A DNA stretch of 64,000 bases from Planctomycetaceae bacterium (GTDB lineage Bacteria; Planctomycetota; Planctomycetia; Pirellulales; Pirellulaceae). This document shows, piece after piece, positions 7,386 through 33,200 of the stretch. The stretch is from contig CANHVO010000001.1 in assembly GCA_947463915.1 (NCBI GenBank), positions 37,359 through 101,358 of the forward strand. The letters run 5' to 3'. A model generated the notes under the pieces. It was not told where the DNA came from and made no database searches. It saw nothing but the letters and a program-made list of their open reading frames with translations. The translations under genes and the position numbers were made by a program. Within the stretch, counting starts at the first letter, position 1, and every line of letters starts with the position of its first letter.

Positions 7386-7560
7386 GGTTTGTTAGCCCCC
7401 TCCGCTTGCCAAGGGCCAAATAGATTCAGTGGGAATGCCATCCAGAATCCCAAAAAAGGACTGGAAAGCCAAGTTATTCTCGAGTTATTGATTAAAATCC
7501 ATCCCCACTGGAAATTTCAAATTGAAATCAGCCCACTCGCATTTGGCATTAACGACATTT

Positions 7561-13500: not shown

Positions 13501-16500
13501 TACGGGAGTGAGTTCGTTCAAGCTTCACCATCAAGAGATGACCAATTTGCTTGGAAGGTTTTCTTAGCTCCAAATTCGCAAATACTAAATCGAGATTTTG
13601 TTTTCGAGCTCCAGTCTACAGTTGGACAATCTCAAAACGCAAGTATCGAAGGAATTCTTTACACAGACGTTAATCGCAATGGCTCGTTTGACGTCGGAAT
13701 TGAAACACCAGGGACCAATAGTACAGTCTTTTTGGATACGAATGGCGATGGTCGTTGGCAGAACCCCGAACGACGTGCGATAACCGATATAAATGGAAAA
13801 TATTCCTTCACCGGCCTTGGTACTCAAATCGTTACGGTGGTCGCCGAGATCGATAATTCCACGACCTTGACTTCTCCCAAGGGAAGTCTTTTCTCGAAGA
13901 GCGTCACCCCACTATTCAATCAGTCTGTCGCGTTTGCAAATCCGCAATCGATCGTAACGGCCGATTTCAACAACGATTCATTTCCGGACGTGGCGGTGGC
14001 TTTCGGTGACGGAAATTTCGTGGGCATTCGATTGAACGACGGTAAGGGTGGTTTTTTGTCGAATCAAATCAACGTGGCTCTGCCTGGCAACAGTCTAGGA
14101 CCAGTAGCGCTGCAGACGGGGTTTTTCAATAACAATACATTGATGGATCTTGCGGTTGTCAACAACTTCAATTCGACCGTAACGATCATGCTCGATTTCA
14201 ACGGTATCGATTTCGCCTCCAAATCAACCGTCACGGTTGGGTCAGAACCGATCGACATCGCATCCGGAAAATTTAACAATGATACTTTTCTGGATTTGGC
14301 GGTAGTCAACAAAGGAAGCAACTCCGTATCCATACTCCTTAATAATAGCAATGGAGGTTTTTCTGTGGCGTCAACGCTATCCTCCGGAGGGAAATTCCCA
14401 TCCGCTATCGTGACCGGGCAATTTACGGACGACAACGCGGATAACATTATCGACTCCAAGGATAAGTTGGACCTGGCTGTAGCGAACTCCCTATCTAACG
14501 CATCAAGTGTCAATGGCAATGTCGCGTTATTCAAAGGGGTTGGTAATGGATCGTTTGTTGCAAACGGACTTTATCCAGTCGCGACCACACCACTCGATAT
14601 CATCACCGCAGACTTTGATCTGAACGGAGTTAGTGATTTGGCTGTTTCCAATTTCACATCCAATACCATTAGCATCTTGACGGGCAGTTTGTCCGGAGCC
14701 TTTCAAGTACAATCAGAGACGCTTGGAACAGCCAACGGAACCATCGATATCGCGATCGCAGACATTGAGAATGATGGTGATTGGGACATAATTTCAAGCA
14801 ACCTGACCAACAATAATGTCTCAATCTTCCGCAACACAAAGAAACAGTCCGCTACGTCAGCTACCCTAAGATTTGAGCCCGCCGAAAACGTAGGGGTTGG
14901 GCAGTTTGCACTAGCCAATCGAATGCCAATCGTTGTCGCGGACTTCGACAAGTCCGGAACCGATGACATTATTGCCGTTCCAAGTGCAACGAAGGCACTT
15001 CACTTGCTGAAAAACTCTCTGATCAACGGAGCCCACCGCATTACGTTGACGGGGACCGAGTCCGTCACGGGGCTTGATTTTGGAACAGCTCCGAAAGTAT
15101 TGCTTCCTTCCTTGGATCCAATCTCATCGCCAGCTCCAATCGTCGAGGATGCGGCAGAACAGTCTATCAACTTGACCGGCATTGCGCGCGGTCGATCTGG
15201 AACCACACCGTTGAGAATCGTTGCATCTAGCGATCGACCTGATTTAGTGTCGTTCTCTTCGAATTCAGTGCAATACGTCCAAGGGAACGCAACTGGATCC
15301 CTCAAGTTTACGCCACAGCCGAATGCTTTTGGCAGCGCAATCGTAACCGTCACTATTACGGATCCTGGCGCTGACCAAACCATCGATACAACGGACGATG
15401 GCATGGTAAGTCGAGCGTTTACCGTTTCAATAATTTCCGTTAACGATGCACCAACATTTGTGCTACCGGCCGGGCGAACTGTCAGGGCTTTTGAAGATGC
15501 AGGCGCACGATCGATTGCGGGTTTCGTTACCGGAATATCCGCAGGTGGCGGTTCCTTTGAATCGACACAGGTTTTGTCGCCATTCACCGTAACGACAGAT
15601 CAGCCAGAATTCTTTTCTTCGTTGCCGACGATTGAGAGTAACGGCAGACTCACATTCACTACTGCGACCAACGTTTCCGGCTTCGCATCGGTCAGCGTAT
15701 CTCTCAAGGACGATGGCGGTATTGCCAATGGTGGCGTCGATGTTCGCAATGATCAGTTCTTGATTCTTGTGGACGCGGTGAATGATGCCCCGTTGATCAA
15801 TATCGGTGGAACGCAGACGGTACCAGTGGGTGCCGTTAAGCAAACGATTCCGAGTTTCGCGATCGGATTCTCACCGGGTGGCGGTCCCGATGAGCTATCG
15901 CAGGTTATCTCGGATTTCCTTGTAAACGTAGATTCGCCCGGGTTGTTTTCAGTATTGCCCGCCATCAGCAATGACGGCACGCTCACCTTTACTCCCGCCG
16001 CGGATCGAAGAGGTATCGCTACGGTCAGTGTTCGAGTTCGCGACAATGGTGGCACGATCAATGGCGGAATCGATTTGTCGATCGCAAAGACCTTCACCAT
16101 CATCATGGGAGCGACTCAAGAGATCACGCTCAACGCGTCAGAACTGGGGCCACATGAAATTGCAATTCGAAACGGTTTTCTTGTCGTTACAGCAGCTGGA
16201 ACAACGGTTCGAAGCGTATTGGCAGCCGAAGTGACCAAAGTTACTACCTTGGACGGCGTTGGGACAAAGTTGTTCGAGGTTAATCTACCAGCCATTAATC
16301 TGCCGGGTATGATTCGATTTACAGGAACAGGAAAGCCGATCGAACTTATCGCGGAACAAGTTGCGATTGACTTGAGTGTACTGACCTCTGACAAACTATT
16401 CGGAATTGAGCTTGCTGATTTAAGAGCCGTTGGGCCAAATTCCATGGCATTTCGATCGACGGATGTAGGTGCTCTCAACAGGTCCAAAACACTTCGTATT

Positions 16501-16986
16501 CTGATGGACAGCGCCGACACGCTTTCAACTCTTGGAAGCTGGGTAGCTCAGGCTGGGCGCTTAGAAAACGGCACATGGATTCAGCCGTTCACTAACGCTG
16601 GTGCAAGAATTGAGGTGATCAGCGCAACTCCTTGGCAGAACAAAGTAAATCGTTTCGACGTCGATGGCGATCTTACATTGTCTCCACTGGATGTCTTGGT
16701 CTTGGTCAACTTGATCAACGCCAATAGTTTTCCAAATGGTCAACTTCCAGCACGCGGTAGTACTCAACCGGATGGCTTCTTTGATCCCGACGGAGACAAT
16801 TCTTTAGGGCCCTTGGATGTCCTAACGCTGATCAATGAAATTAATCGAGGTAGCGGAGCGGCAGGCAGTGAAGGAGAAAAACGCTCACAGTGGGTCGATG
16901 AAGTGATGGCAACGGAGTCGGAAGATTGGGGTGTGGAGATGCGACCGGTGGGCTTAGCGAGACGCAAGCTAGGGAATCGTCGCTAG
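7561..16986 (+). CDS. Giant secreted subtilase / triple-propeller / dockerin protein, copy 2
   Basis: ORF 7522..16986; the in-frame ATG at 7561 (MKRRSPGIPKRRRPLGLEQLESRRLLASDL) gives a better Planc_extracel-like N-terminus. Subtilase triad motifs GVIDSGID, GHGTHVAGT, NGTSMATPHVSG; PD40, SdrD_B-like, FG-GAP, VNDAP and dockerin segments. Confidence 0.92.
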   Translation: MKRRSPGIPKRRRPLGLEQLESRRLLASDLVGNYDQPTAAWYESWDHDSEFLANIAKGLPATEWYSQFVGPRQYQLNDWIVRLSRDETQSEPDPNHVSNLLGTDTVSFQVVAGLGLPGMLHVQSLSRDAKLAEAALAQNSNVLTYSFNEKVTGQVTPNDPEFSNMTGLHNVGQFGATVDADIDAPEAWDITKGSPSVVVGVIDSGIDVTHPDLYLNIWINQGEIPAAKRNALVDTDADGLFTFYDLNASVNATLTRDLNNNGYIDAIDLLQDPLWAEGIDTDNNGFVDDFFGWNFRSNSNEPFASNDPRDALGHGTHVAGTIGAIGNNGLGVTGINWRTSLMSLKFLDENNQGDTASAISAINYATMMRSQFGTNVRVLNNSWGQPGGPNLALQSAIQSSGESGILFVAAAGNGNLIGQGIDNDRTPFYPASYDLPTILTVAATDSKDRLAAFSNYGATSVDIAAPGVGIVSTLPGGRYGTANGTSMATPHVSGVAALLFAEIGLATVAEVRNAIIIQADSISQNNSLIQGRLNAVSSLRSSNFAPNAIHNNRSDVRVAGANFYTFSISYFAREIIDVTSLDDNDIVVERNWGARDRLNASLVSSSIRVLNGGKTVTANYTIVPPGGSWDTLDYGEYEIVIQPTQILALESHKAVRSETIGRFKVEIEDPNFIYVKSKSDITSTKSLRDAIVDANNAAPTARTIILDAGTYSLSKPAIVDGSSAFSTPSTLSGCGFGSSSIGWSNVTSGDLDILGNVTVMGDSRASTTIDGGKIDRIFRVHPGATLNLRQLTLTNGISANGRGGDAILSAGQLSIESVGLFQNGARETIPTGPGGGIAVWSGSATIANSQFESNAAIAGGGLFTCNGATANVDTTSFIGNQGTNRGGAVLSANGGNLKVSNSTIAASNSGAIYAGNAFASLGKFGDSFAPVISDDGRFIVFISDSSNLVPNDTNNEADLFLYDRQDQSIIRVNTSSSGKQDSAGIMQAAISDDNRFIAFSVGGPSILVPGALDNGTKLFLYDRTQQSILRIGISPQNTKISISNNQLIGVETSSGGYSIYDITLGRVSSIPLTSGSFSPKMSRDGRFIVSTTSSPFAPGIFLFDRSTATTTQLRADSSFAEAISADGRYVSFTSSNSTIVQGDNNNLPDLFILDRNTSRTVRVARAGFDPNGTSFSSSFDRNGTTLLFRSTASNMTALGGQSSDPYVYAIQTGQIRNVSITPQGTVPNGPSLVLGRAIDMPSISGDGRFVAFTSLASDLVNNDFDQRANIFVRDLNSISVQSTIPNQVTQISIDYATIVDNSGDFTVGGLSKVGSSILVGNTETNPLGPGSSTIGSNIFAKNPTSPQSTDRVISDRLLVIGPRTAFSQSPDGFPLAKDSPAINHGDPSYATTKDQWGKSRSLPDVGALEVAYASVRGVFYNDENRNFALDIAEPGIVGFQVFDDKNGDGVRQSNEQSTVSRSNNLSTPSIDETGELRFDVLDPGSYRFTPVIPSGWEASRPRTMQVAGDVQGNADVRIENARLSDDRRLLVFSTSANNFISGAGPGIYLYNTISRVVEFVGAGFEPDISGDGTKVAYYRFPNIYLYDVQSKTTTIATQQTADGQTPNGSSAKPSLNRDGSVVAFSSYASNLVEGDTNNSQDIFVYRSVSNRISLVSIGNGGTQSNSNSFSPSIDSFGARLAFESTATNLVTSEDTNQTSDVFYADISSSIPSISLVSRSTNETSGNGSSFMGELSANGRYVVFESDSKNLVALTSNFGRRVYLRDLLSNSTEIISVTNDGTLANGFGSSRPSVSADGRYVAYASDATNLSSGETDTFGDTFVYDRISREVKKISSTYDGSPATGSSSLPSISNDGKAISFLSFTSNITPNDVNEKIDFFIASNPLTTIEYIVNLTAGETVTDLRIGVTAIPGGISGELFVDDIANGIPDPNEQRLNGAIVYVDENNNNVLDNTERSVVTTNGSYRFDNLPSNREYLLRVRYGSEFVQASPSRDDQFAWKVFLAPNSQILNRDFVFELQSTVGQSQNASIEGILYTDVNRNGSFDVGIETPGTNSTVFLDTNGDGRWQNPERRAITDINGKYSFTGLGTQIVTVVAEIDNSTTLTSPKGSLFSKSVTPLFNQSVAFANPQSIVTADFNNDSFPDVAVAFGDGNFVGIRLNDGKGGFLSNQINVALPGNSLGPVALQTGFFNNNTLMDLAVVNNFNSTVTIMLDFNGIDFASKSTVTVGSEPIDIASGKFNNDTFLDLAVVNKGSNSVSILLNNSNGGFSVASTLSSGGKFPSAIVTGQFTDDNADNIIDSKDKLDLAVANSLSNASSVNGNVALFKGVGNGSFVANGLYPVATTPLDIITADFDLNGVSDLAVSNFTSNTISILTGSLSGAFQVQSETLGTANGTIDIAIADIENDGDWDIISSNLTNNNVSIFRNTKKQSATSATLRFEPAENVGVGQFALANRMPIVVADFDKSGTDDIIAVPSATKALHLLKNSLINGAHRITLTGTESVTGLDFGTAPKVLLPSLDPISSPAPIVEDAAEQSINLTGIARGRSGTTPLRIVASSDRPDLVSFSSNSVQYVQGNATGSLKFTPQPNAFGSAIVTVTITDPGADQTIDTTDDGMVSRAFTVSIISVNDAPTFVLPAGRTVRAFEDAGARSIAGFVTGISAGGGSFESTQVLSPFTVTTDQPEFFSSLPTIESNGRLTFTTATNVSGFASVSVSLKDDGGIANGGVDVRNDQFLILVDAVNDAPLINIGGTQTVPVGAVKQTIPSFAIGFSPGGGPDELSQVISDFLVNVDSPGLFSVLPAISNDGTLTFTPAADRRGIATVSVRVRDNGGTINGGIDLSIAKTFTIIMGATQEITLNASELGPHEIAIRNGFLVVTAAGTTVRSVLAAEVTKVTTLDGVGTKLFEVNLPAINLPGMIRFTGTGKPIELIAEQVAIDLSVLTSDKLFGIELADLRAVGPNSMAFRSTDVGALNRSKTLRILMDSADTLSTLGSWVAQAGRLENGTWIQPFTNAGARIEVISATPWQNKVNRFDVDGDLTLSPLDVLVLVNLINANSFPNGQLPARGSTQPDGFFDPDGDNSLGPLDVLTLINEINRGSGAAGSEGEKRSQWVDEVMATESEDWGVEMRPVGLARRKLGNRR

Positions 16987-17666: not shown

Positions 17667-20600
17667 ATGCACCAAAAATACGCTCGATCAGCTCGTAATC
17701 GTTCTTCTCGTAGACGCAGATTGCAATACGAATTGCTTGAGTCAAGGCGAATGCTAGCATCGGACTTGGCGGTAAACGACACTTTGCATCAAACAACCGG
17801 TCCGATGAACTGGTTTGAATCGTTTCAAGACGTCGACCGAGTTTCGCCTGAGTCATTAGCAGACGTCGACAAGTCGCTTCCAGCAGGAATTGCCGGCCCC
17901 GTCGAACCGGCTGTGGGTGAATGGATAGTTCAGTTGACGGACTCGGCAGCGAAGCCGCTTCGATCTCTCGATCAAGCTAACTCGCTCTTCAATCAAGCCT
18001 ACGGTGACTTCACCATCATCAGCGGCCTCGGCGTCGAGGGATTGCTGCTCGTTCGCGGTCGTGGAGCGACCAAGAGCGTGCTTGAGTCCAGTCTGAGCCA
18101 GAATGAAAACGTTCAGTCGTTTAGCCTCAATCAATTGATCGAGGGCAAATCAACAACACCGAACGATCCTGAGTTTGTGGCTGGTCTAATGCCTGGCATG
18201 GAGAAGATCGACGCGACGAACGCTTGGGATGTTTCGCGGGGCAGTTCATCGACTGTTGTTGGTGTCGTCGACGGAGGCATCGATCCGACGCACCCTGACC
18301 TTTATTTGAACATCTGGGTCAATCAAGGTGAGCTTCCTACCAAGTATCTCGATGATGTGGGGCCTAAGCTAACGGATATCGATGGAGATGGGCTCATCAC
18401 GTTTTATGACTTAAACAACGTCACACGAGCTACAACATCGCCGTATGCATTTACTTTCAATGGCTTTGCGAATGGTCCCAACGCGTCGTTTGTTGTGGAC
18501 AAGAACAGCAATGGACGAATCGATGCCGAGGACTTGCTTGCAGACCCGAATTGGGCGGATGGATTTGATACCGACAACAACGGTTTCTTTGATGACTTTT
18601 TTGGTGTGAATTTTCGTGCCGGTTCGGGCGATCCGTTCGCAGCCAACAACCCATCCGATGAGCTAGGGCACGGAACGCACGTGGCCGGAACGATCGGAGC
18701 TATCGGTGGCAACGCAGCCGGCGTCGTGGGTGTCAATTGGCAAACATCGTTGATGTCGCTTCGGATACTTGACAACAACAACCAAGGAGACTCGGGAGCG
18801 GCGATTCGCGCGATCAATTATGCACGTGAGATGCGAGAACGGTATCGCGTCGAGCCCAATGGCCGCGTGTCGGAAGGCGCCAACGTTCGCGTGCTCAACA
18901 ATTCATGGGGCCAACCAGGCGGCTATGAAGTTTCGCTAGAAACAGCCATCCAAGATAGCACCGACGCCGGCATCTTGTTCGTCGCTGCTTCCGGCAACGG
19001 AAATTTCCTGGGGCAAGGCGTCGACAACGATCGAACGCCGTTTTATCCAGCAGGCTACAACACCGTGCTAGCCGTGGCCGCATCAGATTCAAGTGATCGC
19101 CCCGCAACCTTTTCTAACTTCGGTATCAAGTCAGTCGATATCTTTGCACCGGGAGTCGGCATCCGCAGCACATTGTCGGGCGGAGGCATTGGCAGCGCCA
19201 ACGGTACCAGCATGGCATCGCCGCATGTTGCCGGTACGGCAGCCCTTATCTGGTCCGCATTTCCAGCGGCAACAGTCGACGAAGTCCAACTCGCCATCTT
19301 AAGCACGGTCGATCCGATTACCAACGGCAGTTCATTCGTTTCCACGGGCGGTCGACTCAACGCATCCAAGGCCATCAACGCAGATGTCTTCGCACCAGCA
19401 GCAAGACTCGTATCTAAACAAAACATCACGTCATCTGGGGGCGCATCGACCGAGTTCACTGTCGAGTACAGTCATCGCAGCGGGATCGATACAACGAGTA
19501 TAGGCAATGAGGACTTGATCGTCACAAGACAATGGGGCCCCGCAGACCAATTAGTTGCAACCCTCAAACCCAATTCGATTACAACAACCGTCACAACAGC
19601 ACGCGCGACGTACATCGTTTCAGCCCCAGGCGGCACATGGGACCCACTCGACTTCGGCGATTACGTCATCTCGACGGTAGCAGGAAGAGTTGCTGCCAAG
19701 GTTGGAGGCAAAACCACCGAAGCCCGCGACGTTGGTTTGTTCAATGTACGCATCATCGACCCATCGTTTCTGTACGTGACTACGTATTCCGACTCATTAG
19801 AACAAGGCACCTTGCGCAGTCAAATCATTGCTGCAAATGCAGCAGCACCTTCGCCACGTACGATCATCTTAGAGTCGGGACTATATAGCATTGATGTTCC
19901 GCCAACTCCCGATTTCGCATCCAAGTTTCCAACTCCTTCCCCACAGTCGCAGTGTTTTGCTCCTGCGGTTCACTCGGCTTGGTCAAATGAAGCGTCAGGA
20001 GATTTCGATGTTATCGGTTCAATCACCGTAATTGGAAATCAAAAGGATACAACCATCATCAATGGGAAGTCATTTGATAGAGTGTTCAAAGTGCATCCCG
20101 ATGCTACCTTTAATTTGCAGAGGGCTACGATAACAGGTGGTGTGTCACCAACCGACCAGGGAGGCGGAGGTATTTTATCTGCGGGCAATCTTAGTATTAC
20201 GGACAGCATCATACGCGGAAACCGCGCAAAGGGAATTGAGGCTATCAGCCCAATCGGAGGTGGTGGTGTTGCTGTTTGGTCTGGACAAACCAACATTTCT
20301 AGCTCCTGGATCGATGATAACGATAGCAACCTTGGTGGAGGTGTGTTTTACTGCGGAGCTTCAGACGGAAACATTTCGCAAAGCACAATTAGTAACAACC
20401 GCGGAGGAGGAGTTCAAGGAAGTTCTAGCAAAGACCTAATCGTTTCGAATTCCACGATTTCAACAAATGTTGGTGGCAACGGTGCCATCGCTGACTTCAA
20501 CGGAGTCAACGATGCTATTCGCGACCCATCTATTAGCGCTGATAGCCGCTTTATTGCATTTTCTTCCAAGGCCGACAATCTAGTTCCAGGTGATACAAAT

Positions 20601-23600
20601 GGAATTGAAGATATCTTTGTCTTCGATCGAAACAGTAATGTGATAGAGCGTGTAAGTATGGCAAATGACGGCTCCCAGGAAAGCAATTTCAGCTTTCAAC
20701 CATCGATTAGTGCAGATGGCCGATTTGTGGCATTTGGCTCTTATGCAGAGAACTTTGTTCCGGGGGATACCAACGATACGTCCGATATTTTTGTCTATGA
20801 TCGGCAGCAACATTCTATTCAATGTGTTACTCTAGGTATCAATGGTGCGATAGGAAATAGTGATAGTTTCTATCCGTCAATCAGCGCGGATGGTCGTTAT
20901 GTTGTTTACAGCTCCAGCGCAAGTAACTTGGTGACCGGAGATACAAACGGTAAAGGCGATACGTTTATATTTGATACCGTTCGTAAAACCACGGAACGTG
21001 TTACCGGCCAGAGTGGGGCCGAATCTACTGGGGGCGGAATTGCATCTATTAGTTCTAACGGCCAGTTTATCGCTTTTTCTTCATTTGAGGACAACCTAAG
21101 TCCACTCGATATGAACGGAAGTCTCGACGAGTACGTTTATGATCGAATCAGCAGACAATTTGAGCGAATTAGTTTTACCGCTACGAGTACCCAGTCGTTT
21201 GTAAATGAAAGTGGAAATCAAACAATAAGTGCGGATGGACGGTACGTATCCTTCGATGCTTCAACTTCACTTGTGCCAGAAGATATAAATGGTAAATCGG
21301 ACGTTTATGTCTATGATCGTACCAACCATTCCCTTGAACTGATCAGCAAAGGATTAGGAGGGCAGATGGCAAACGGCGAGAGTAGTGTTCCATCGATTAG
21401 CCCAGGTGGAAGATTTGTCGCTTTCACTTCGACTTCGAGCAATCTAGTCTTAAACGACAGTAATAATACCAAAGATATCTTTATCTTCGATCGAACATTG
21501 CGTACTCTGGAGCGAGTCAACGATGCTAACAACGGAATCTATTCCTCGAATGCTGATAGCCTTTTCGAAAACTTGCAGGTTTCACTTAGTGACGACGGTC
21601 GATTTGGGGTGTTCGCAAGTGTTGGGGACAAACTTGACATAAATTTGCTCGACCGCAACAGCCAGCAAATTCGTCCTGCACCTTTTGACCAGGGGTTTTC
21701 TACAATTCGTGGGACTGAGCTTACCTTGGTTGGAGAGACGTTAACTAGATTTTCTGTTTCAGGTAGTGTGGATCTTGTCGATACCATTATCTCTGGGACT
21801 AATGCCGATCTCGGCTCCCAGGTCTCTTTCAAAAATGTGCTTCAAGATTCATCTCCCGGCGTCTCGTTTTTGGGGAAGTTAGACCGTATCGGTACGGCTC
21901 CTCCGGTACATTTACTCCTTCGAGGAAATCCCGCTATTGATCAAGGCAGCATACTGTTCTCTGGCTCAAGAGACCAACTCGGGGTGTTGAGAGGAAAACC
22001 AGATATCGGAGCCGTCGAGGTTGTAGATGCAAACGTATCAGGACTCGTTTACATCGATTCCAACAGGAATCAACTTTTTGATGATGGCGAAACGACGATT
22101 CCAGACGTCCAGGTTAGGCTTCAGTCACCATTGTCAATCCGCTCGGCCATTTCAAACGCGGCTGGTGTTTTTAAAGTGGAGAAAATCGATCCGGGCAAAT
22201 TGACTGCGACGGTCTCATTGCCAAAAAACTTTACAAAATCGGTACCCGTCACACAGAGGATTCCTCCAACCTTCGTCCCGAATAAAAGCAGCTTTTTCGG
22301 AGGTCTAAGTTCAGATGGGCGATTCGTTGCTTTCGAATCAGATGCAACAAATCTTGTTCCAAACGATACCAACAACACTCGCGACTTATTTCTTTACGAT
22401 CGTCAAGGCAAGACTGTCATTCGAGTTGCAGAAAATGCAGCATTCTCGTCGCCAAGTGTCAGTCCAGATGGTGGGTTCGTTGTCTACAATTCCATTTTAT
22501 ATCCTTCTGGTATGAGCAGCGTTTTTGCGTACAACGTCTTGAGTAGTAGAACGGAACTCATTGGAGGAGGGAGCGGCGCGAAACTGAGCAACGATGGTCG
22601 ATTTGTCGTTTTTTCATCGCAAGGCCTATTCGTGTACAACCGTGATACACAGGTGACTGAGCAGCAAAACATAACTACGACCGGGGGACTGCCAAATGAT
22701 TTCATTAACCACAGTTCTATCAGCGATGATGGGCGCTATATCGTTTTTGATTCATTGGCTGATAATTTAGTTGCTTCAGATATCAATCTTCATCAGGATG
22801 TTTTTCTTTACGATCGAGTTGATAAAAAGACTACGATAGTTAGTGCCAACGCCATGAAAGTTCAAGGAAACGGAGATTCTCTTTCTCCTTCCATTTCTGC
22901 TGACGGACGATACGTCGTGTTTCTTTCCGATTCCACTAACCTAATTGAAAGCGGCACCAAGAATGTTCGTAATGTATTTGTTTTCGACAGAATCACAGGA
23001 TCTTTAGAACTAGTAAGTAAATCTTCCAAGGGCGCCCAGGGAGACGACTTTAGTTCGACGCCGTCAATCAGTTCCGATGGCCGATTCGTCTCGTACGGAT
23101 CGGACGCGACCAATCTCGTCGACGGTGATACAAATCGCAATCGTGACATTTTTCTTTTCGATCGCTCTTCAACCACAACCCTACGGCTCAACCTGACTGA
23201 CGGAGAACAACAACGTGGCTTTAGCTTTGCTCAATCAATGAGCGCAGATGGAAGCCTTGTCGTCTATGAGTATTTCCCAAATACGAATGATTCAGATCGA
23301 GACGGTCCCTCCGATGTCTATGTTGCGGCGAACCCACTCACCGATGCAAATCGCTCAAGGATTGTTTCCGCAGGAGACATTGTAACTGATCTCAACTTAG
23401 GTCTCGCTCCCGATCCAGGAACGATTTCAGGACGGGTCTATGAAGACTCAATACTCGAAAATGGCAATTACGACCAAGGTGAGACCGGACTAGCTGGCTG
23501 GACGGTTTATGTTGACGAAAATAACAATGGAGTGCAAGAACGAACCGAGCAATTTGGGATAACCAACAATGTTGGCGTTTACCAATTGTCAAACATGCCA

Positions 23601-26600
23601 GGATACAAAAGGTACACTATTCGTGCTGTCGCTCAGTCAGGTTTCGTTCAGATCGCTCCTCTGTCCGGCAGCAACGACTTATTTTTGTCAGCGGGCGGTA
23701 CGATTGGCGATCGCGATTTTGGTTTCCAGCGAGTGCAATCGAGTGGGCAATCGAGTGGTTCATCGGTCAGTGGCCGGCTTTATGATGATCGTAATGGAAA
23801 TGGTCTCTTCGATGCTGGTGATGTTCCGATCGCCAATCGTGAAGTCTACCTCGATGCTGCTAACTTCGGTGTGCGCGACTCGAATGAACCTCGCGTTTTA
23901 ACCGATTCCCAAGGTTTTTATAGCATCGATGGCTTGAGCTCGCGGACTGTGGCCGTGACAACCACACTCGATGCATCCCTAGTCCACGTTTCACCGCTTG
24001 GCAGCCAGTTCAGTCTTCAAAAATATCCTCTTTTCGCTGGCATCACTCCGTTCGCTAATCCACAGGCGATCGTCTCTGGCGACTTCAATCTGGATGGATA
24101 TGCCGATGTGGCTATCGCATTGGCTGAAGCCAATAAACTGAGCATTCGCTTGAATGACAAGAAGGGTGGGTTCCTGCCTGACCCCATCGATATCGATCTG
24201 GGCAAAGACGGTGTCGGGCCGGCTTCGTTGGTCATTGGCCAATTTGACAACGATCCTAAACTCGATGTCGCTCTCACAGCTAAATTATCATCGAAGGTAA
24301 TCGTGTTGTTGAATTTCAATCCGACGACCAAAACGTTCGCGTCGCAATCTGCCGTAACCGTCGGCCTACAACCGACCGATATCGTTGTAGGACAATTTGG
24401 TGGCGATTCAAAACTGGATTTGGTTGTCGTCAATCAAGGAAGCGCATCGGTCAAAGGAGATTCGACCGTTCAAGTTCTCACAAACAATGGCAGCGGCGTA
24501 TTTACCGCTGGGCCGCCTGTTCCAACAGGAGGGGACGATTCCATTTCGCTCACGGCCGCAAACTTCGCGGGGGATACCTCACTGGACGTTGCTGTGGTCC
24601 ATGCGGCTCCCGCTAATACATCGACACCCAACGGAGGCGTTACCATTTTGGTTGGCAACGGTGCCGGAGGTTTGTCTCTGCAATCGACGTTCTACCAAAC
24701 AGGAGCTCTCCCGATCGATTCATCGACGGCTGACTTCAATGGCGATGGACGGGCCGATTTGGCTGTCGCGAATTTTAGTTCGAACTCGATTTCAATTTTG
24801 ATTGGTCAATCCAACGGCACATTCCGGGTTCAAACGGCGATTCTCGGTACTGCCAGCGGTGCGTTCGATATCACCGTTGGGGATATTGATGACGATGGAG
24901 ACATCGATGTCATTGCAAGTAACTTGATCGATCGCAACATTTCGATCTTCCGCAATATAGGAGTCGATGCGACCAACGGCGACGTGCGATTTGAACCTCT
25001 AGAAAACGTTGGTCTCGGTCAATTCGCGCAAGCACAGCGGATGCCGTTGGTCGTCGGTAACTTTGACAACGACACATCCGGGCCTGGAGGAAAAGGCACG
25101 CTTGATATCGTGACGATTCCGCAAGCTACCGATACGATCCACGTCCTGAAGAACAGACTTGTTAATGGTACCCACCGGGTCTTACTAACGGGTACGAATA
25201 AGGTCACCGACATGGATTTCATCATCAAGAATGCAATCCTGCCTCCATCTTTCAATGACATATCGAGCCCTGCACCGATCGTTGAAGATGCAACGGAACA
25301 GTTGATTGAGTTGACCGGTATCAAAAAGGGGCGTGCAACAGGACCTGCCTTAAGATTTGCGGCGATCAGTTCTGTGCCTGGGTTGATTTCGAACCCCGTA
25401 GTTACTTACCTTGATGGCAACACCGGCGCAACGCTACGTTATGCGTCTGTCGCGAATGCGAATGGCACGGCCATCATCACCGTACAAGCGATCGACGCGG
25501 GTGCTGATCAAACGTTCAATACAACCGACGATGGGAGTTTTGAACGTTCAATCACCGTGACTGTGCTTGCGGTCAATGACCCTCCAACATTTTTGGTACC
25601 TTCGTTAACTACAGTAACTCAAAAAGAGGGAGCTCAGTCGATAGCTAACTTTGTTAGTAGCCTTTCGCCTGGCCTTGGTTCCGATGAAGCGAATCAAGCT
25701 CTTTCGTCCACCATCGTCGTTTCGGATCCAAGTTTGTTTACCATACAACCGGCGATCAATGGGGCGGGAATATTGACGTTTACGCCGAACCGAAATCAAT
25801 CAGGCATTACGCCGATAACAATATCCTATAAGGACAATGGTGGCATCGCGAACAGTGGTGTCGATACTGCGACGAAGAATTTCGTCATCCAAGTGCTGCC
25901 GGTCAATGACGCACCCTCATTTAGTCTACAAGGCAACCTGTCGGCGCAAGTGGGATCAGGATTACAAACAAAAACGGGCTTCGCCTTTGGCTTCTCACCA
26001 GGTGGCGGTCCCGATGAAGCGTCGCAAATTGTGCTGGACTATTTGGTAACTGTGGATTCGCCAGGACTGTTTGTGAAGCTCCCGGTCATTGATTCCGCCG
26101 GTACACTGACGTTTACACCTGCCGCCGATCGAAGTGGTATCGCATCCGTCAGTGTTCGTGTTCGCGATAGCGGTGGAATATCAAACGGCGGCGTCGATTT
26201 GTCGCCCATAAAATCATTTACGATTACTGTCGGGCTGTCGCAAACGCTAACACTGAATGCAGCCGAAATTGGGCCACATGAAATCGCGATTCGCAATGGT
26301 ATGCTGGTGGTGACAGCTGGGGGAAATACCATCAATAGCGTACCGGTTGTGGATCTTCAGAAGGTAACGATCAACGACCGTTCCGGAGCGAGACTTTTCG
26401 AAGTCACGGCTCCTGCATCGAATCTGCCGGGAACAATCCGCTACACTGGAATTGGCAGGCCGATCGAGTTGGTCAGCGAACAAGCGTTGATTGATTTGTC
26501 GTCGTTGACGCCAGACAAATTGTTTGGAGTCCAGATTGTGGATTTGCGATTGACGGGAGTAAACAGCTTTGTGTTTAAACCGACGGATGTAAGTTCTCTG

Positions 26601-27134
26601 AATGCCACCAAGACGCTTCGGTTCATAATGGACAAAGACGATAAGCTGGCTACACAGAGCGTATGGAAATCGCAAACAGGTACAGCTGAAAATGGAGTAT
26701 GGGTACAACCTTATACATCGGGTGATGCGAGAATCGAAGTGATCTCGACGTCCCCGTGGCAGAACAAGGTTAATTTGTTCGATATTGATGGTGATCAAGC
26801 CGCGTCGCCATTGGACGTATTGGCATTGATTAATTTAATCAACGCTGGTTCGGGTGGAGCCCTACCTGTACGAGGCTCAATTGGCTTGGGCACGATCAAT
26901 TCCTTTATCGATCCCGATGGCGACAACACGCTTGGGCCACTGGACGTTCTGACGGTGATTAATCAACTGAACCGCGGCAGCGGTGCCGACGGGGAATCGA
27001 CGGATGCAATGTTGTATCCGTTTTCGACGCAATCGATCGATCAAGTCATGGCAGTGGACTTAAGCGATCTGTTTGAGAGTCCTACTGTCGTCACTTACTC
27101 CACAAAAAGTTCTCGGCGACAGGACAAGAGGTGA
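17667..27134 (+). CDS. Giant secreted subtilase / triple-propeller / dockerin protein, copy 3
   Basis: RRRRLQYELLESRRMLASDL N-terminus; S8 motifs GVVDGGID, GHGTHVAGT, NGTSMASPHVAG; PD40 blocks, FG-GAP blades, VNDAP repeats, dockerin DIDGDQAASPLDVLALINLIN...DPDGDNTLGPLDVLTVINQLN. Confidence 0.92.
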   Translation: MHQKYARSARNRSSRRRRLQYELLESRRMLASDLAVNDTLHQTTGPMNWFESFQDVDRVSPESLADVDKSLPAGIAGPVEPAVGEWIVQLTDSAAKPLRSLDQANSLFNQAYGDFTIISGLGVEGLLLVRGRGATKSVLESSLSQNENVQSFSLNQLIEGKSTTPNDPEFVAGLMPGMEKIDATNAWDVSRGSSSTVVGVVDGGIDPTHPDLYLNIWVNQGELPTKYLDDVGPKLTDIDGDGLITFYDLNNVTRATTSPYAFTFNGFANGPNASFVVDKNSNGRIDAEDLLADPNWADGFDTDNNGFFDDFFGVNFRAGSGDPFAANNPSDELGHGTHVAGTIGAIGGNAAGVVGVNWQTSLMSLRILDNNNQGDSGAAIRAINYAREMRERYRVEPNGRVSEGANVRVLNNSWGQPGGYEVSLETAIQDSTDAGILFVAASGNGNFLGQGVDNDRTPFYPAGYNTVLAVAASDSSDRPATFSNFGIKSVDIFAPGVGIRSTLSGGGIGSANGTSMASPHVAGTAALIWSAFPAATVDEVQLAILSTVDPITNGSSFVSTGGRLNASKAINADVFAPAARLVSKQNITSSGGASTEFTVEYSHRSGIDTTSIGNEDLIVTRQWGPADQLVATLKPNSITTTVTTARATYIVSAPGGTWDPLDFGDYVISTVAGRVAAKVGGKTTEARDVGLFNVRIIDPSFLYVTTYSDSLEQGTLRSQIIAANAAAPSPRTIILESGLYSIDVPPTPDFASKFPTPSPQSQCFAPAVHSAWSNEASGDFDVIGSITVIGNQKDTTIINGKSFDRVFKVHPDATFNLQRATITGGVSPTDQGGGGILSAGNLSITDSIIRGNRAKGIEAISPIGGGGVAVWSGQTNISSSWIDDNDSNLGGGVFYCGASDGNISQSTISNNRGGGVQGSSSKDLIVSNSTISTNVGGNGAIADFNGVNDAIRDPSISADSRFIAFSSKADNLVPGDTNGIEDIFVFDRNSNVIERVSMANDGSQESNFSFQPSISADGRFVAFGSYAENFVPGDTNDTSDIFVYDRQQHSIQCVTLGINGAIGNSDSFYPSISADGRYVVYSSSASNLVTGDTNGKGDTFIFDTVRKTTERVTGQSGAESTGGGIASISSNGQFIAFSSFEDNLSPLDMNGSLDEYVYDRISRQFERISFTATSTQSFVNESGNQTISADGRYVSFDASTSLVPEDINGKSDVYVYDRTNHSLELISKGLGGQMANGESSVPSISPGGRFVAFTSTSSNLVLNDSNNTKDIFIFDRTLRTLERVNDANNGIYSSNADSLFENLQVSLSDDGRFGVFASVGDKLDINLLDRNSQQIRPAPFDQGFSTIRGTELTLVGETLTRFSVSGSVDLVDTIISGTNADLGSQVSFKNVLQDSSPGVSFLGKLDRIGTAPPVHLLLRGNPAIDQGSILFSGSRDQLGVLRGKPDIGAVEVVDANVSGLVYIDSNRNQLFDDGETTIPDVQVRLQSPLSIRSAISNAAGVFKVEKIDPGKLTATVSLPKNFTKSVPVTQRIPPTFVPNKSSFFGGLSSDGRFVAFESDATNLVPNDTNNTRDLFLYDRQGKTVIRVAENAAFSSPSVSPDGGFVVYNSILYPSGMSSVFAYNVLSSRTELIGGGSGAKLSNDGRFVVFSSQGLFVYNRDTQVTEQQNITTTGGLPNDFINHSSISDDGRYIVFDSLADNLVASDINLHQDVFLYDRVDKKTTIVSANAMKVQGNGDSLSPSISADGRYVVFLSDSTNLIESGTKNVRNVFVFDRITGSLELVSKSSKGAQGDDFSSTPSISSDGRFVSYGSDATNLVDGDTNRNRDIFLFDRSSTTTLRLNLTDGEQQRGFSFAQSMSADGSLVVYEYFPNTNDSDRDGPSDVYVAANPLTDANRSRIVSAGDIVTDLNLGLAPDPGTISGRVYEDSILENGNYDQGETGLAGWTVYVDENNNGVQERTEQFGITNNVGVYQLSNMPGYKRYTIRAVAQSGFVQIAPLSGSNDLFLSAGGTIGDRDFGFQRVQSSGQSSGSSVSGRLYDDRNGNGLFDAGDVPIANREVYLDAANFGVRDSNEPRVLTDSQGFYSIDGLSSRTVAVTTTLDASLVHVSPLGSQFSLQKYPLFAGITPFANPQAIVSGDFNLDGYADVAIALAEANKLSIRLNDKKGGFLPDPIDIDLGKDGVGPASLVIGQFDNDPKLDVALTAKLSSKVIVLLNFNPTTKTFASQSAVTVGLQPTDIVVGQFGGDSKLDLVVVNQGSASVKGDSTVQVLTNNGSGVFTAGPPVPTGGDDSISLTAANFAGDTSLDVAVVHAAPANTSTPNGGVTILVGNGAGGLSLQSTFYQTGALPIDSSTADFNGDGRADLAVANFSSNSISILIGQSNGTFRVQTAILGTASGAFDITVGDIDDDGDIDVIASNLIDRNISIFRNIGVDATNGDVRFEPLENVGLGQFAQAQRMPLVVGNFDNDTSGPGGKGTLDIVTIPQATDTIHVLKNRLVNGTHRVLLTGTNKVTDMDFIIKNAILPPSFNDISSPAPIVEDATEQLIELTGIKKGRATGPALRFAAISSVPGLISNPVVTYLDGNTGATLRYASVANANGTAIITVQAIDAGADQTFNTTDDGSFERSITVTVLAVNDPPTFLVPSLTTVTQKEGAQSIANFVSSLSPGLGSDEANQALSSTIVVSDPSLFTIQPAINGAGILTFTPNRNQSGITPITISYKDNGGIANSGVDTATKNFVIQVLPVNDAPSFSLQGNLSAQVGSGLQTKTGFAFGFSPGGGPDEASQIVLDYLVTVDSPGLFVKLPVIDSAGTLTFTPAADRSGIASVSVRVRDSGGISNGGVDLSPIKSFTITVGLSQTLTLNAAEIGPHEIAIRNGMLVVTAGGNTINSVPVVDLQKVTINDRSGARLFEVTAPASNLPGTIRYTGIGRPIELVSEQALIDLSSLTPDKLFGVQIVDLRLTGVNSFVFKPTDVSSLNATKTLRFIMDKDDKLATQSVWKSQTGTAENGVWVQPYTSGDARIEVISTSPWQNKVNLFDIDGDQAASPLDVLALINLINAGSGGALPVRGSIGLGTINSFIDPDGDNTLGPLDVLTVINQLNRGSGADGESTDAMLYPFSTQSIDQVMAVDLSDLFESPTVVTYSTKSSRRQDKR

Positions 27135-27298: not shown

Positions 27299-30200
27299 AT
27301 GCCATCCAAGGATTTGCACTCTACCAACGCACGAAAGAATCACAAACGTACACGACGTACAAGATTTCTTTTTGAGCTTCTCGAACAACGGGCAATGCTT
27401 GCGAGCGATCTGCATGCTACCAGTATTCCGTTTCATTGGTTTGAATCGAATCATTCTGTTGATCGCGTTCCCGTGGCGGAGTTGGCTCGAGTCGACAAGT
27501 TGTTACCCGAGGGAGTTGCTGGTCCCGTTGCACCTGCACTTGGTGAATGGATTGTGCAACTGACAGATGACTCCGCAAATTCAGTTAACTCGTTTGAGCA
27601 AGCGGCGAAGGCTCTGAATCAAGATGCCAATACGTTTACAATCATCTGCGGACTTGGTTCCAAGGGATCGCTACTTGTTCGAGGAACAGGATCCACCAAA
27701 GTCTCCATCGAAGCCAGTTTGTCGCACAATTCGAACGTCCAATCGTTTAGCCTCAATCAACTGATCCAAGGTCAATCGACAACACCGAACGATCCCGAGT
27801 TTGTGGCTGGTCTTATGCCAGGTATGGAAAAAATCGATGCGACGAACGCTTGGGATGTGACGCGAGGTAGTTCGTCGACCGTGGTTGGTGTCGTTGACGG
27901 AGGTATCGACCCAACGCACCCGGACCTCTATTTGAACATCTGGATCAATCAAGGCGAACTGACTAACAAGTATCTCGATGATGTGGGGCCTAAGCTAACG
28001 GATATCGATGGAGATGGGCTCATCACGTTTTATGACTTGAACAATGTCACTCGAGCCACGACCGCTCCGTATGCGCTTACTTTCAATGGCTACACCACAG
28101 GTCCCAATGCATCCTTCGTCGCAGACAAAAATAATAATGGTCGGATCGACGCGATCGATCTGCTCGAGGATCCGAATTGGGCAGATGGTTTTGATACCGA
28201 CAACAACGGCTTTTTCGACGACTTCTTCGGAGTGAACTTTCGAGTCGGCTCGGGCGATCCGTTCGCAGCCAATAATCCATCGGATGAGTTAGGGCACGGG
28301 ACGCACGTCGCGGGCACGATCGGAGCCATTGGAGGTAACGCAACCGGTGTTGTGGGCGTCAATTGGCAAACATCGCTTATGTCCCTTCGAATTCTTGATA
28401 ACAACAACCAAGGCGATTCCGGCGCAGCGATTCGAGCGATCAATTACGCTCGCGAGATGCGTGAGCAATATCGCGTCGATACTATTGGCCGTGTGACTCA
28501 AGGTGCGAATGTCCGTGTTTTAAACAACTCGTGGGGACAACCCGGCGGTTACGAAGTATCCCTCGAAGCCGCAATCCACGACAGCAGCGATGCTGGAATC
28601 ATCTTTGTAGCCGCCGCCGGTAACGGCAATTTCATTGGCCAAGGCGTCGATAACGATAGAACGCCCTTCTATCCAGCCAGCTACGACGTTCCCGGGTTGA
28701 TTGCAGTAGCCGCTTCCGACCCGACCGATCGTCCGGCCGGTTTCACTAACTTCGGTGCGCAGTCAGTTGACCTCTTCGCTCCTGGCGTAGGTATCCGAAG
28801 CACGCTTCCCGGTGGTGGTTACGGTAGTGCCAACGGAACCAGCATGGCGACACCGCATGTCGCTGGCACCGCTGCCTTGGTATGGTCGGCATTCCCAGAA
28901 GCAACGGTAGCTGAGGTTCAAAAGGCGATTCTTAGCAAGGTTGCCCCGATTGCCAACGGCAGCTTATTCGCATCCACCGGCGGGCGTTTAAGTGCCTCCA
29001 AAGCTATCATAGCCGACGTCTTCGCACCCGCGGCAAGATTGATCGCCAAACAAAACATCACGACCGCTGGCGGTACTTCAACTGAGTTCACTGTTCAATA
29101 TTTCCATCGCAAGGGGATCAATGCGGCAACGATTGGCAACGACGACATTCTCGTAAAGCGTCAATGGGGTTCCACCGGTCCGCTGTCGGTAACTCTCAAA
29201 CCGAACAGCATTACATCGACATCGACCTCGGTCAACGCGACCTATATACTTACTGCTCCGGGTGGCGTTTGGGATCCGGAGGATTTTGGAGATTACGTAG
29301 TTGAAACCACAGCGGGGGGCGTGGTTTCGTCGGAAACTGGTCAATCCACGCAATCGCGAGAGATTGGTCTTTTTAATGTTCGAATCAACGATCCCAGTTT
29401 CATCTACGTTCAATCGAACTTCGACAAGCCTGGGAACGGATCGCTCCGAGAGGCGATTGCCACAGCCAACGCTGCCGGCGCGTTTCGCACCATTATTTTG
29501 GAGACCGGTACGTATCTTCTCGAAATTCCCTTCCAAGCCGATCCCAACTCAACATTCCCTCAATCGATTTCATCTACACTTGTCGATTTGCCCCCAAATC
29601 TAGGAGCTTGGTCGGGCGAGGGCACTGGCGATTTTGATATCACTGGTTCCGTGCGGATCATCGGAAATCAAAACGACTTGACGACTATTGATGCGCAGCG
29701 TCTCGATCGAGTTTTCAAAGTCCACGCTGGCGGATTTTTGGAGCTTGATCGCGTAACAATAAGAGGAGGGAATTCACCGCCCAACCAGGGAGGGGGAGGC
29801 GTCTTGTCGTTAGGGGAACTACGCCTCAACAACACGATCGTTCGCGGAAATCGTGCGTTGGGAAATGATCCGATCGATCTAATCGGCGGCGGCGGTATTG
29901 CGACTTGGGGAGGAGGTGTCCAGCTTTCAGAATCGTGGATCGATGGAAACGAGGCAGACTTCGGAGGTGCCTTTTTCGCAACCGGCGATGCCGATTTTTT
30001 TATTGATCGAAGTACCATTAGCAACAATCAGGGAGGTGGTGTTCATTCCCATTCGCATTTCACAAATACAATTGTGAATTCGACTTTCTCGGAGAACGTC
30101 GGCGGTAAAGGGGCCATCTTCAACAGCAGAAACAGTTTCGAAGGAAACAGTTTTGCACCGGTCATTAGTGCTGATGGTCGTTTCGTGGCCTTCGAGTCGG

Positions 30201-33200
30201 AATCAGGAACGCTTGTGCCGGGAGATACAAATTCAGTCTCCGATATTTTCGTTTACGAACGAGCGACAGGTAGGATCGAACGCGTGAGTGTCGCATCCGA
30301 CGGTACGCAAGCTGATTCATTTAGCTTTGAACCTTCGATTAGCGCAGATGGGCGCTTTATCGCCTATCGCTCACACGCGAGTAACTTGGTTCCTGCCGAT
30401 ACCAACGGAAGTCGCGACATCTTCGTCTTTGATCGCCTTACTCGGCAGACGACTCGCGTCAGCGTATCGTCCACAGGCGCGCAGGTGCCGGCCGGCAGTC
30501 GTACGGAACAACCGGCTATCAGCGCAGATGGACGCTACGTCGCTTTCTGGTCCAATGCAAACAATCTCGTTTCCAACGATACCAACGGTAATGTAGATGT
30601 TTTTGTGCGCGACCTCCTGAATCAAACGACCGAACGGGTAAGTCTTACTTCTGGTAATTTTCAAATTTCAGGTGATAGCTTAGGCGTTTCGATTAGTGAT
30701 GATGGTCGATTCGTCACCTTTACTACCGATGCCAACAACGTCGTAAGTGGCGATACGGATAGCATTATTTCGGTTTTTTTACGCGACCGATCAGCAAACT
30801 CGACGTTACGCGTGGCCGACGGAGAGAAGCCTCAGCTAAGTGGCAACGGCCGGTTCATTGCATTTCAGTCTTCGTCTCCGCTCGTCGTTTCCGGCGACAC
30901 GAACAACACATCAGACGTTTTCGTTTATGATATTGCGAACTTTTCTCTTGAGCGTATCAGTAAGTCGGCTGCAGGGACGCAAGGAAACGGTGGGAGCTCC
31001 GATCCAAAGTTAAGCCGTGACGGCAAATATGTGGTTTTCAATTCGGCGGCAAACAATTTGGTTTCTGCTGATCTCAACGACGCGAGCGACCTTTTTATCC
31101 GTAATCGAACAACCAATTCCGTATTTAGGATACCGAGCGGATCCGGAAGCAGCGGACCTGGCTTCGGTTTCTCACAGCCATCGATCGATGCCGAAGGACG
31201 ATTTATAGCCTTTGACTCTAGCCTCGACAGTCTCTTATTTCCCGATAACAACCAACTTGCTGATATCTATCTTTACGACGCGTTTAACCAAACAGCGAGT
31301 GCTGTAACGGTCTTCTCGTCAGGCGCACTACAAGTGGAGCAGGTCTCCGTCGTAGATGCTAGTCAGGCCAACTACGCGGTGACTGGAAAGGTCATTTTGA
31401 CCGATGCCCTTTTGGTGAATGCCATCTTCGACCGTAGTCCCGGTGTTACGTCAACGAACGTGATTTCCAAAAGCGACGCTGGTGCCTTTGCAATCGGACC
31501 GCTAAAACGCCGCAACTATCTTCCTCCCGTCCGGCCGTTATTGGCAGGCAACCCGGCTATCGATAAAGGAACCCCCTCGTTCCAGGGTCGAGTCGATCAA
31601 TGGGGACGAATTCGAACAACGCCAGACATCGGAGCGTTTGAAGCCATCGAGGCTTCTATCTCCGGAACGGTCTATGTCGATCTCAATCAGAATCAATTGC
31701 GAGAGTCAGACGAACCGGTGATTTCGGATGCTTTTGTTTCTGTAAATTCAGTCTCTCTGGCAGACTCCAACTCCTTAGGAGGCTATGCTATCGATGATTT
31801 GTCCCGAGGGAAAACGATTGTCGGTATCCAGCCTCCGGGGCTTTTTCAGTCAAGTAAAGCCAAGCTTCAGATCATCCCACCGCTGGCTGCTAATAACACC
31901 CGAGGAACAAACGGCGCTTCGAGCGCGGATGGCCGATTCTTCGCCTTTGAGTCCGATGCCGATAATCTCGTTCCCGCCGATACCAACGGGAACAGCGACG
32001 TCTTTTTATTCGATCGCCTTCGTAATACGACGATTCGCGTTAACACTTCTTTGAGCGGAAGTCAAGCAAATGACCAAGCCTTTTCTCCCGTGATGAGCAC
32101 CGACGGACGGTTCATTGCCTACCTCTCCCGAGCATCTAACCTTGTACTCGGTGATACGAGCTCGGTTATGGACGTCTTTCTGTTCGATCGGGAAACTTCG
32201 AGTACTCAGCGGATCAATCTGGGACCTAATGGAGTCGAAGCGAATCAAGACACCATTTCCATTGCCATGAGCGCAAATGGACGCTTCATTGCCTACAATT
32301 CCCTTGCGTCAAATATTGCCGCCGGTGATACCAATGACAAATATGATTTTTTCGTCTTTGATAGGGTGAATCGCACAACTGAATATATTCCAACTTCGCT
32401 AACTTCCCAGAACTTCTTTATTTCTGGCGATTTGAAGATTAGCGGTGATGGTCGATATCTAACCTTTTCATCGAACGCGGGGACTATCGTAAGCGGAGAT
32501 ACAAACAACAATTTTGATATCTTCGTCTACGATCGCGTCACAAAAGCCTTTGATCGCGTTAGTGTAAATAGCACTGGCGGACAAGTGAACGGAGATAGCT
32601 TATATCCGGATCTCAGTTTCGATGGTCGATATGTAGTGTATCAGTCGTCAGCGGTTGACATTGTCTCGGGGGATAACAATGACAGCCAAGACGTTTTTTG
32701 GTTCGATCGAATAACTCGCGAAGTGAAGTTGCTCAGCAAGGCAAACAACGGTTCGCAGGCCCTCGACTTTAGCTTTGAAGCAAATATCAGTGGAGACGGG
32801 CGCTTTGTCGCGTTCTCGTCTTTCGCTTCGAATCTGATTCCCGACGACACGAACGGCAATCCTGACGTCTTCGTTGTTGATCTCACCACGAATCAATTGG
32901 TTCGTGCGAGCAATACAGTCGATGGTAAACAGGCGATTAGTGCCGGAAGCGGTAATGGCAGCTCATCACCCAAATTAAGCGTCGACGGACAATTCTTAAC
33001 GTTTCTTTCATCGGCTTCGAATCTGGTCCCCGGAGATAGTAATCAAGGTCCGGACGGTTTCTTTGTCGCCAATCCACTGGCCGATGGTGCGCGTCAACTT
33101 ACGCTTGTTCCTGGTGATCAGATCGTCGATCTAGATTTTCCATTGATCGCGCAAGCGGGCAATCTTTCGGGACGTCTATTCGTTGACACCGTCCTTAACA

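Follow-up and report, generated by a model that had tools for sequence, protein, structure and literature searches.

Giant genes at one locus of a Planctomycetaceae bacterium encode chains in which beta-propellers alternate with pieces of other beta-domains, which raises the question of whether each propeller stands beside its neighbors or inside a host domain that it interrupts. The locus is a tandem array of four paralogs (c1 to c4) on the forward strand of contig C1, largely within the 64,000-nucleotide stretch of DNA (C1 positions 37359-101358) that was analyzed here and is referred to as the window. A first-pass annotation of the sequence had proposed the second arrangement, with a propeller placed before the final strand of a host three times in the chain encoded by copy 3. 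The open reading frame of copy 3 and every string quoted from it were recovered in the order given, and the same order was found, as the annotation had indicated, in c1, c2 and c4. More distant paralogs on contigs C44, C46 and C306 of the same genome also have an identical domain order. All copies begin with a planctomycete-type N terminus (PF07595, a weak match), an S8 peptidase, a beta-helix, PD40 propeller A and a choice-of-anchor Q end, continue with SdrD_B1, PD40 propeller B, a tail, SdrD_B2, SdrD_B3, an FG-GAP propeller and its tail, and close with cadherin-like repeats and a dockerin-like end (Table 1).

Table 1. Features of the giant gene array and of related loci (positions are those of the window unless stated otherwise)
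Feature	Position	Strand	Residues, evidence or remark
Copy 1 (c1)	1..7173	+	Gene start upstream of window; architecture same as c3
c1 P_proprotein insert	L001:4899-6026		Upstream of window start
c1 propeller A	406..1608	+	7 blades of 58 aa; 174-bp DNA repeat
c1 propeller B	2242..3387	+	7 blades
Copy 2 (c2)	7522..16986	+	Architecture same as c3
c2 propeller A	10339..11403	+	PD40, several blades degenerate
c2 propeller B	12127..13209	+	PD40
c2 FG-GAP propeller in SdrD_B3	13936..15015	+	Profile matches
Copy 3 (c3)	17667..27134	+	Giant secreted protein, 3155 aa; three interrupted hosts
S8 (subtilisin-like) peptidase domain	18204..19319	+	c3 180-551; PF00082 E=1.4e-51
Uninterrupted APG|GTWDP junction in c3	19623..19646	+	c1 carries P_proprotein insert there
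Host 1 N-terminal part, parallel beta-helix coils to STISTNVGGNGAIAD	19794..20495	+	c3 710-943; PF13229
Guest A, 7-blade PD40/TolB-like propeller between two beta-helix coils	20523..21671	+	c3 953-1335
Host 1 C-terminal part, last coil(s) and choice-of-anchor Q cap to DIGAVEV	21672..22022	+	c3 1336-1452; NF041518
Host 2 N-terminal part, SdrD_B1 strands to LPKNFTKSVP	22032..22247	+	c3 1456-1527
Guest B, 7-blade PD40 propeller inside SdrD_B1	22248..23345	+	c3 1528-1893
Host 2 C-terminal hairpin RSRIVSAGDIVTDLNLGLAPDPG	23352..23420	+	c3 1896-1918
SdrD_B2, intact, same family, internal control	23418..23732	+	Profile, AF2
Host 3 N-terminal part, SdrD_B3 to VHVSPLGSQF	23763..24011	+	c3 2033-2115
Guest C, FG-GAP (integrin-alpha-type) propeller inside SdrD_B3	24012..25163	+	c3 2116-2499; PF13517, AF2, Foldseek
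Host 3 C-terminal hairpin NGTHRVLLTGTNKVTDMDFIIKN	25164..25232	+	c3 2500-2522
Dockerin-I-like calcium-loop pair near C terminus	26778..26972	+	c3 3038-3102; PF00404 E=0.004, under curated cut-off
Copy 4 (c4)	27299..36847	+	Architecture same as c3
c4 propeller A	30149..31333	+	PD40, 7 blades
c4 propeller B	31922..33058	+	PD40, 7 blades
c4 FG-GAP propeller in SdrD_B3	33800..34894	+	Profile matches
VVW blocks, L036	~831-1196		Protein residues
VVW blocks, L038	~337-711, 781-1147		Protein residues
VVW blocks, L132	~862-1245, 1313-1672		Protein residues

The constituent domains were assigned by profile. The predicted S8 peptidase of c3 combines its PF00082 match with Asp, His and Ser motifs that could be read in the sequence. 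From profile matches and visible repeats, propellers A and B have seven PD40-type blades each in c1, c3 and c4, while several blades of c2 are too degenerate for counting; the PD40 match reached 41.7 bits (PF07676, cut-off 20.9), and AlphaFold2 (AF2) models searched with Foldseek led to TolB. In propeller B the outermost strand of the last blade is missing, and its place is probably taken by a strand immediately ahead of blade 1. The FG-GAP propeller scored 71.7 bits with PF13517. SdrD_B domains of c3, c2 and c4 scored 66, 49 and 36 bits with PF17210, against a curated cut-off of 29.7, and E values of the host domains went down to 4e-18. No RNA families were found within the window.

Downstream of the array, on the same strand, lies a serine/threonine kinase gene (36956-40270), whose product (P0005) combines a kinase domain with TPR-like repeats. 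A kinase gene downstream of a giant gene on the same strand was seen at the end of the C1 array, on C44 and C46, and in G023b and G009 (including L002, L003, L031 and L033), suggesting that the two form a conserved gene pair. Two further large proteins encoded close together on the reverse strand (48488-53254 and 58722-62726) carry kinase, nSTAND1 NTPase and FGE-sulfatase domains, a combination reminiscent of proteins that act in conflict or as sensors.

Within the chain, SdrD_B2 shows what an undisturbed domain of this family looks like. It has the complete fold in one stretch, is uninterrupted in all these copies and ends in "...FLSAGGTIGDRDFGF". SdrD_B1 and SdrD_B3 halt before an ending of this type, and matching endings ("SRIVSAGDIVTDLNLGL" and "HRVLLTGTNKVTDMDFII"), which hold the last hairpin, follow only after the propellers. 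The best Pfam SdrD_B stretch in c3 ends at profile position 73 of 112, a weak observation alone as intact domains end nearby too. As the last third of the Pfam model is poorly matched even by intact domains, a separate profile was built from 23 intact tandem domains, taken only from unrelated proteins to avoid circularity. The N-terminal part of each interrupted domain was then joined by script to each downstream segment in turn, and the stitched sequences were scored with this profile. For SdrD_B1 (site 1 of the scan), the mean gain peaked 25 aa before SdrD_B2, at 5.4 bits (next best, 2.3; z 10.5, n = 18), and for SdrD_B3 (site 3) it peaked 4 aa after the FG-GAP block, at 4.5 bits (next best, 3.6; z 7.6, n = 21), the scanned homologs being mutually related, so that these z-scores overstate independence and are not probabilities. 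Gains in single sequences were small and noisy, with another position scoring higher in several homologs, and the average over homologs was therefore used. Stitched in this way, the SdrD_B hosts align column by column with intact domains over their full length. Judged from these comparisons, the tails behind SdrD_B1 and SdrD_B3 are parts of the interrupted hosts. The order of host, propeller and tail proposed initially is thus confirmed at both sites, but each propeller precedes a hairpin of two strands and not the last strand only.

An AF2 model of the SdrD_B2-SdrD_B3-FG-GAP region, made with seven sequences, had a mean pLDDT of 81. In SdrD_B2, strands were modelled at residues 2-9, 29-32, 46-48, 54-57, 64-70, 76-80, 86-90 and 101-105. 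The first six strands of SdrD_B3 come before the propeller and two come after it (586-591 and 601-605), with the same 15-residue spacing as strands 86-90 and 101-105 of SdrD_B2. This spacing recurs, at moderate confidence, in the two strands of SdrD_B1 that follow propeller B (1132-1136 and 1147-1151). Foldseek matched the first model to integrin alpha propellers, which were among the top folds, and to SdrD B domains. A second model, running from the beta-helix through propeller A and SdrD_B1 to propeller B, was matched to TolB and other propellers; its pTM was 0.44, and the N-terminal part of the beta-helix and propeller A were fairly well modelled. Structure prediction, which the first-pass annotation had proposed as a check, is consistent in secondary structure with nesting for both SdrD_B hosts, but it left the anchor-Q part (residues 606-689) unmodelled, with pLDDT below 50. 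We infer that strands pair across the guests.

The beta-helix host had been labelled CSLREA-type. Its split by propeller A stands, as do the quoted strings and their order, but the label goes no further than resemblance: an NCBIfam profile search had no CSLREA model among the matches at E ≤ 0.1 and gave choice-of-anchor Q (NF041518), with 31.4, 25.0 and 28.2 bits in c3, c2 and c4 at a cut-off of 25. Right-handed beta-helix (PF13229) was matched at 29.6 bits in c4 (cut-off 25.9) and, just below the cut-off, at 24.4 bits in c3. Coils are present on both sides of the guest; these are unmistakable in the relatives L036, L038 and L132 and only moderate in c3. Propeller A is placed inside the beta-helix, but ahead of the last one or two coils and the anchor-Q cap instead of a final strand. 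The stitched scan gave only a weak peak for this host (z 4.1), and it is homologs with a contiguous beta-helix that carry the case.

Such homologs, proposed at the outset as a check, proved decisive. In L175 (G885) and L177 (G827), the beta-helix is contiguous, with coils such as "..NTTISGN.." leading through further coils to anchor Q. SdrD_B1 is contiguous in L031 (G023b, same genus), with a gain of 16.7 bits across the junction, and is empty in L040 (G057a), where SdrD_B2 is occupied. In L031 the final run of beta-helix coils is likewise uninterrupted, and an insert of a different, perhaps propeller-like kind lies just before PDIGAVE. An exact pair of empty and filled sites exists inside the tandem array itself: c1 has an insert of ~294 aa with P_proprotein-type sequence (PF01483) between its peptidase and its beta-helix, at APG|GxWDPLDFG, a position that is uninterrupted in c2, c3, c4, G023 and L051.

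Occupied sites hold guests of several kinds. SdrD_B1 contains a PD40 propeller in L175, an FG-GAP propeller in L177 and L036, and a lactonase-type propeller in L038 (PF10282 match) and L132 (similar by eye). In L036 a "VVW...RRFDA.G" repeat block sits in the beta-helix, and in L038 and L132 two VVW-type blocks occupy two coil turns. These blocks had no Pfam match; their ~55-aa repeat ("VVW...RRFDA.G...N"), with ~6 copies per block, probably represents an undescribed propeller family. PPC domains are found in both the beta-helix and SdrD_B1 of L133. Doublings to ~14 blades occurred at site A in C306 and G891a and at site B in G402. Sockets of ~14 blades, probably two seven-blade propellers, span protein residues ~973-1728 of L004, ~1149-1962 of L173 and ~1869-2649 of L131. 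Thus, the rule put forward in the first-pass annotation holds in that three hosts are split, but it is not specific to propellers, as PPC and P-domains also serve as guests and some sockets are empty. In a tree built from the SdrD_B3/FG-GAP part, at least six changes of state were counted at SdrD_B1 and at least five at the beta-helix, the branches being long and deep placement unsure. The homologs were collected with an SdrD_B2-B3-FG-GAP query, and the constant occupancy of site 3 among them is by construction. Within the family, 17 of 241 genomes carry this signature (E ≤ 1e-60), as do a few from other families of the same order; when 392 genomes sampled from the phylum were searched at E ≤ 1e-50, this genome alone was matched. 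At L034 (G035:C489), the giant gene is in two open frames, probably through a frameshift or an assembly error.

Comparison of close relatives points to exchange of the middle of the gene. Copy c2 and its homolog in G023b are sisters on the SdrD_B3/FG-GAP tree (support, 100), sharing 88% amino acid identity in S8, 87% in FG-GAP and 90% in the C terminus (87 to 91% over the ends), with fourfold sites 66 to 78% identical. From behind the peptidase to SdrD_B2, amino acid identity drops to 25 to 40% and fourfold identity to 0 to 27%. Orthologous ends around an unrelated middle indicate, at the sequence level, that the middle block was replaced as a unit, with a change in the occupancy of two sockets. 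The S8 domain and SdrD_B3/FG-GAP are the most strongly conserved parts, being 76 to 88% alike among c1, c3 and c4, and the middle is 26 to 52% alike. Recent gene conversion was considered for these conserved ends and rejected, as fourfold identity is 20 to 45% where amino acid identity is 76 to 87%; the N-terminal 150 residues of c1 and c3 are an exception (fourfold, 78%). As fourfold identity is low in ends and middle alike, selection is what keeps the ends similar. The locus L030 (G023:C139) is a mosaic, with an N-terminal part nearest c1 (fourfold identity, 71% versus 33% to c4) and an SdrD_B3-FG-GAP part nearest c4 (49 to 50% versus 25 to 29% to c1).

Blades also appear to have traveled within a gene. 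In c1, DNA identity between blades of A and B is 72%, against 72% within A and 74% within B, whereas the c1 propellers share 50 to 52% with those at the same site in c3 and c4. The same pattern was seen in G892c (74 against 58 to 61). This suggests that blades or whole propellers move between the sockets of one gene. The 174-bp tandem DNA repeats of c1 are blades of two propellers in different hosts that are homogenized with each other.

The best explanation of these observations, and one that we consider probably correct, is that the domains are nested, with split, swappable sockets and side-mounted guests. Each giant protein would be a chain of beta-domains, some of them split sockets, in which the chain would exit the host at a fixed loop, fold a guest with adjacent ends, return and complete the host. 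The ends of a propeller meet in one blade, so that a propeller can hang from a loop, and a closed propeller would suit a role as guest in which two ends must be close together. The series of hosts would form an unbroken rod with the guests hanging from its side, where they could be exchanged, duplicated or dropped while the rod stays intact. By analogy, the guests would be ligand-binding or matrix-binding heads, and the fast-evolving middle would be the variable binding region of what is likely, as a prediction, a protein that is secreted or attached to the surface and binds several ligands. The role of the peptidase may be to process the giant protein itself or to act on material bound to it. 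More tentatively, and with slightly less than even weight, we propose that fixed loops of SdrD_B and beta-helix domains would be general sockets of a natural display rod, in which guests of unrelated fold are gained, doubled, swapped and lost by recombination, with blade traffic between the sockets of one chain, so that planctomycetes would possess exchangeable recognition heads mounted on its side.

The simplest rival is that the domains are arranged as beads on a string and that each tail motif is a short linker or a small domain of its own. The failure of AF2 to model the anchor-Q segment could be taken that way, as could the Pfam SdrD_B match ending near position 73 in intact domains too, which implies that the tail is weakly conserved generally. 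However, the same tail occurs without any propeller in SdrD_B2, in SdrD_B1 of L031 and in tandem SdrD_B proteins, the scan average puts it at the predicted place and nowhere else, and relatives with contiguous hosts already contradict this reading, which we regard as very improbable. Scarcely any more credible, and if anything slightly less so, is the idea that the flanking strands serve to close the propeller ring and that the hosts are truncated domains. It draws on the strand before blade 1 that probably completes the last blade of propeller B and on the strands that AF2 placed at the propeller B junction, but it would cover the few residues adjacent to blades and not the conserved hairpin further out, which is present without a propeller (SdrD_B2 and L031) and after PPC, an unrelated fold (L133).

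Nesting could also be real but old and frozen, with guests set once per lineage and the whole middle block, not single guests, exchanged today. That c2 and G023b differ over the whole block that starts after the peptidase and ends at SdrD_B2, including its hosts, fits this account, as does the finding that guest kinds differ chiefly between families and genera; against it, the blades of A and B in c1 and G892c resemble each other across hosts as closely as within one host, 14-blade doublings arose at A (C306 and G891a) and at B (G402), and P-domains are in c1 only among the tandem paralogs. We consider it unlikely, while giving it appreciable weight. The same weight is given to a different view of function, in which the protein is a giant secreted protease that employs its propellers and beta-helix for recognition or as a scaffold on behalf of the S8 peptidase, the task being substrate handling and not binding. 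The presence of catalytic motifs and the strongest conservation falling on S8 and SdrD_B3/FG-GAP speak for it, but the variable middle fits diversified recognition under either view.

If the nested arrangement is correct, a chain in which several hosts, belonging to two unrelated folds, are interrupted, together with relatives in which the same host is empty or filled one way or another, constitutes a ready-made natural experiment that bears on which loops accept guests and on how multidomain proteins evolve. Nesting also accounts for why SdrD_B matches in proteins of this kind look truncated, and it points to a scaffold, provided by nature, by which domains could be mounted along the side of a rod.

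No description of this architecture was found in the open-access literature, but its parts have known relatives. By profile, the SdrD_B hosts are of the same family as the B-domains of Staphylococcus SdrD (PF17210; PDB 10ps), 10ps being matched by both sequence and fold; unlike the hosts here, SdrD B repeats are contiguous, with no inserted guest. Guest C matches the integrin alpha fold and has the DxDxDG loops of integrin-type FG-GAP propellers (PMC3192720), although the propeller of some integrins is host to a vWA domain, whereas here the propeller is itself the insert. Like propellers freshly amplified from single blades (PMC9218822), those of c1 have near-uniform blades and a 174-bp DNA repeat, but in this case one blade pool is common to two propellers that sit in different hosts of the same chain. 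Of multidomain proteins, 20% contain an insertion of the A1-B-A2 type, and the guest is usually smaller than its host (median, 115 versus 199 residues) (PMC13114784); the guests described here, of ~310 to 400 residues or consisting of two propellers, are ~three to seven times larger than the ~105-residue host.

The closest parallels are adhesins in which a split domain carries another. In the pilus tip adhesins RrgA and GBS104, as here, stalk domains D1/D2 are split and a head, D3 (vWA), is inserted between the parts, but there is one head, the folds differ and the pili are sortase pili of Gram-positive bacteria (PMC7893114). In the RTX adhesins FrhA and MpIBP, a split beta-sandwich in a very long chain likewise holds an inserted ligand-binding domain, the ends of the guest leave the host side by side, and a role in holding the guest outward has been proposed for the host (PMC10865825). 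These adhesins have one Ig-like host with a sugar- or peptide-binding guest (PMC10865825), whereas the hosts here match SdrD_B and beta-helix and not a split Ig-like domain, several occur per chain, the guests are mostly propellers of several families, and occupancy varies. By analogy, we predict that the giant proteins work like an RTX split-domain adhesin without being one, with binding and projection by the guests. What is known, then, are the parts and split domains that project ligand-binding guests; what is new is the presence of repeated, swappable sockets in one chain.
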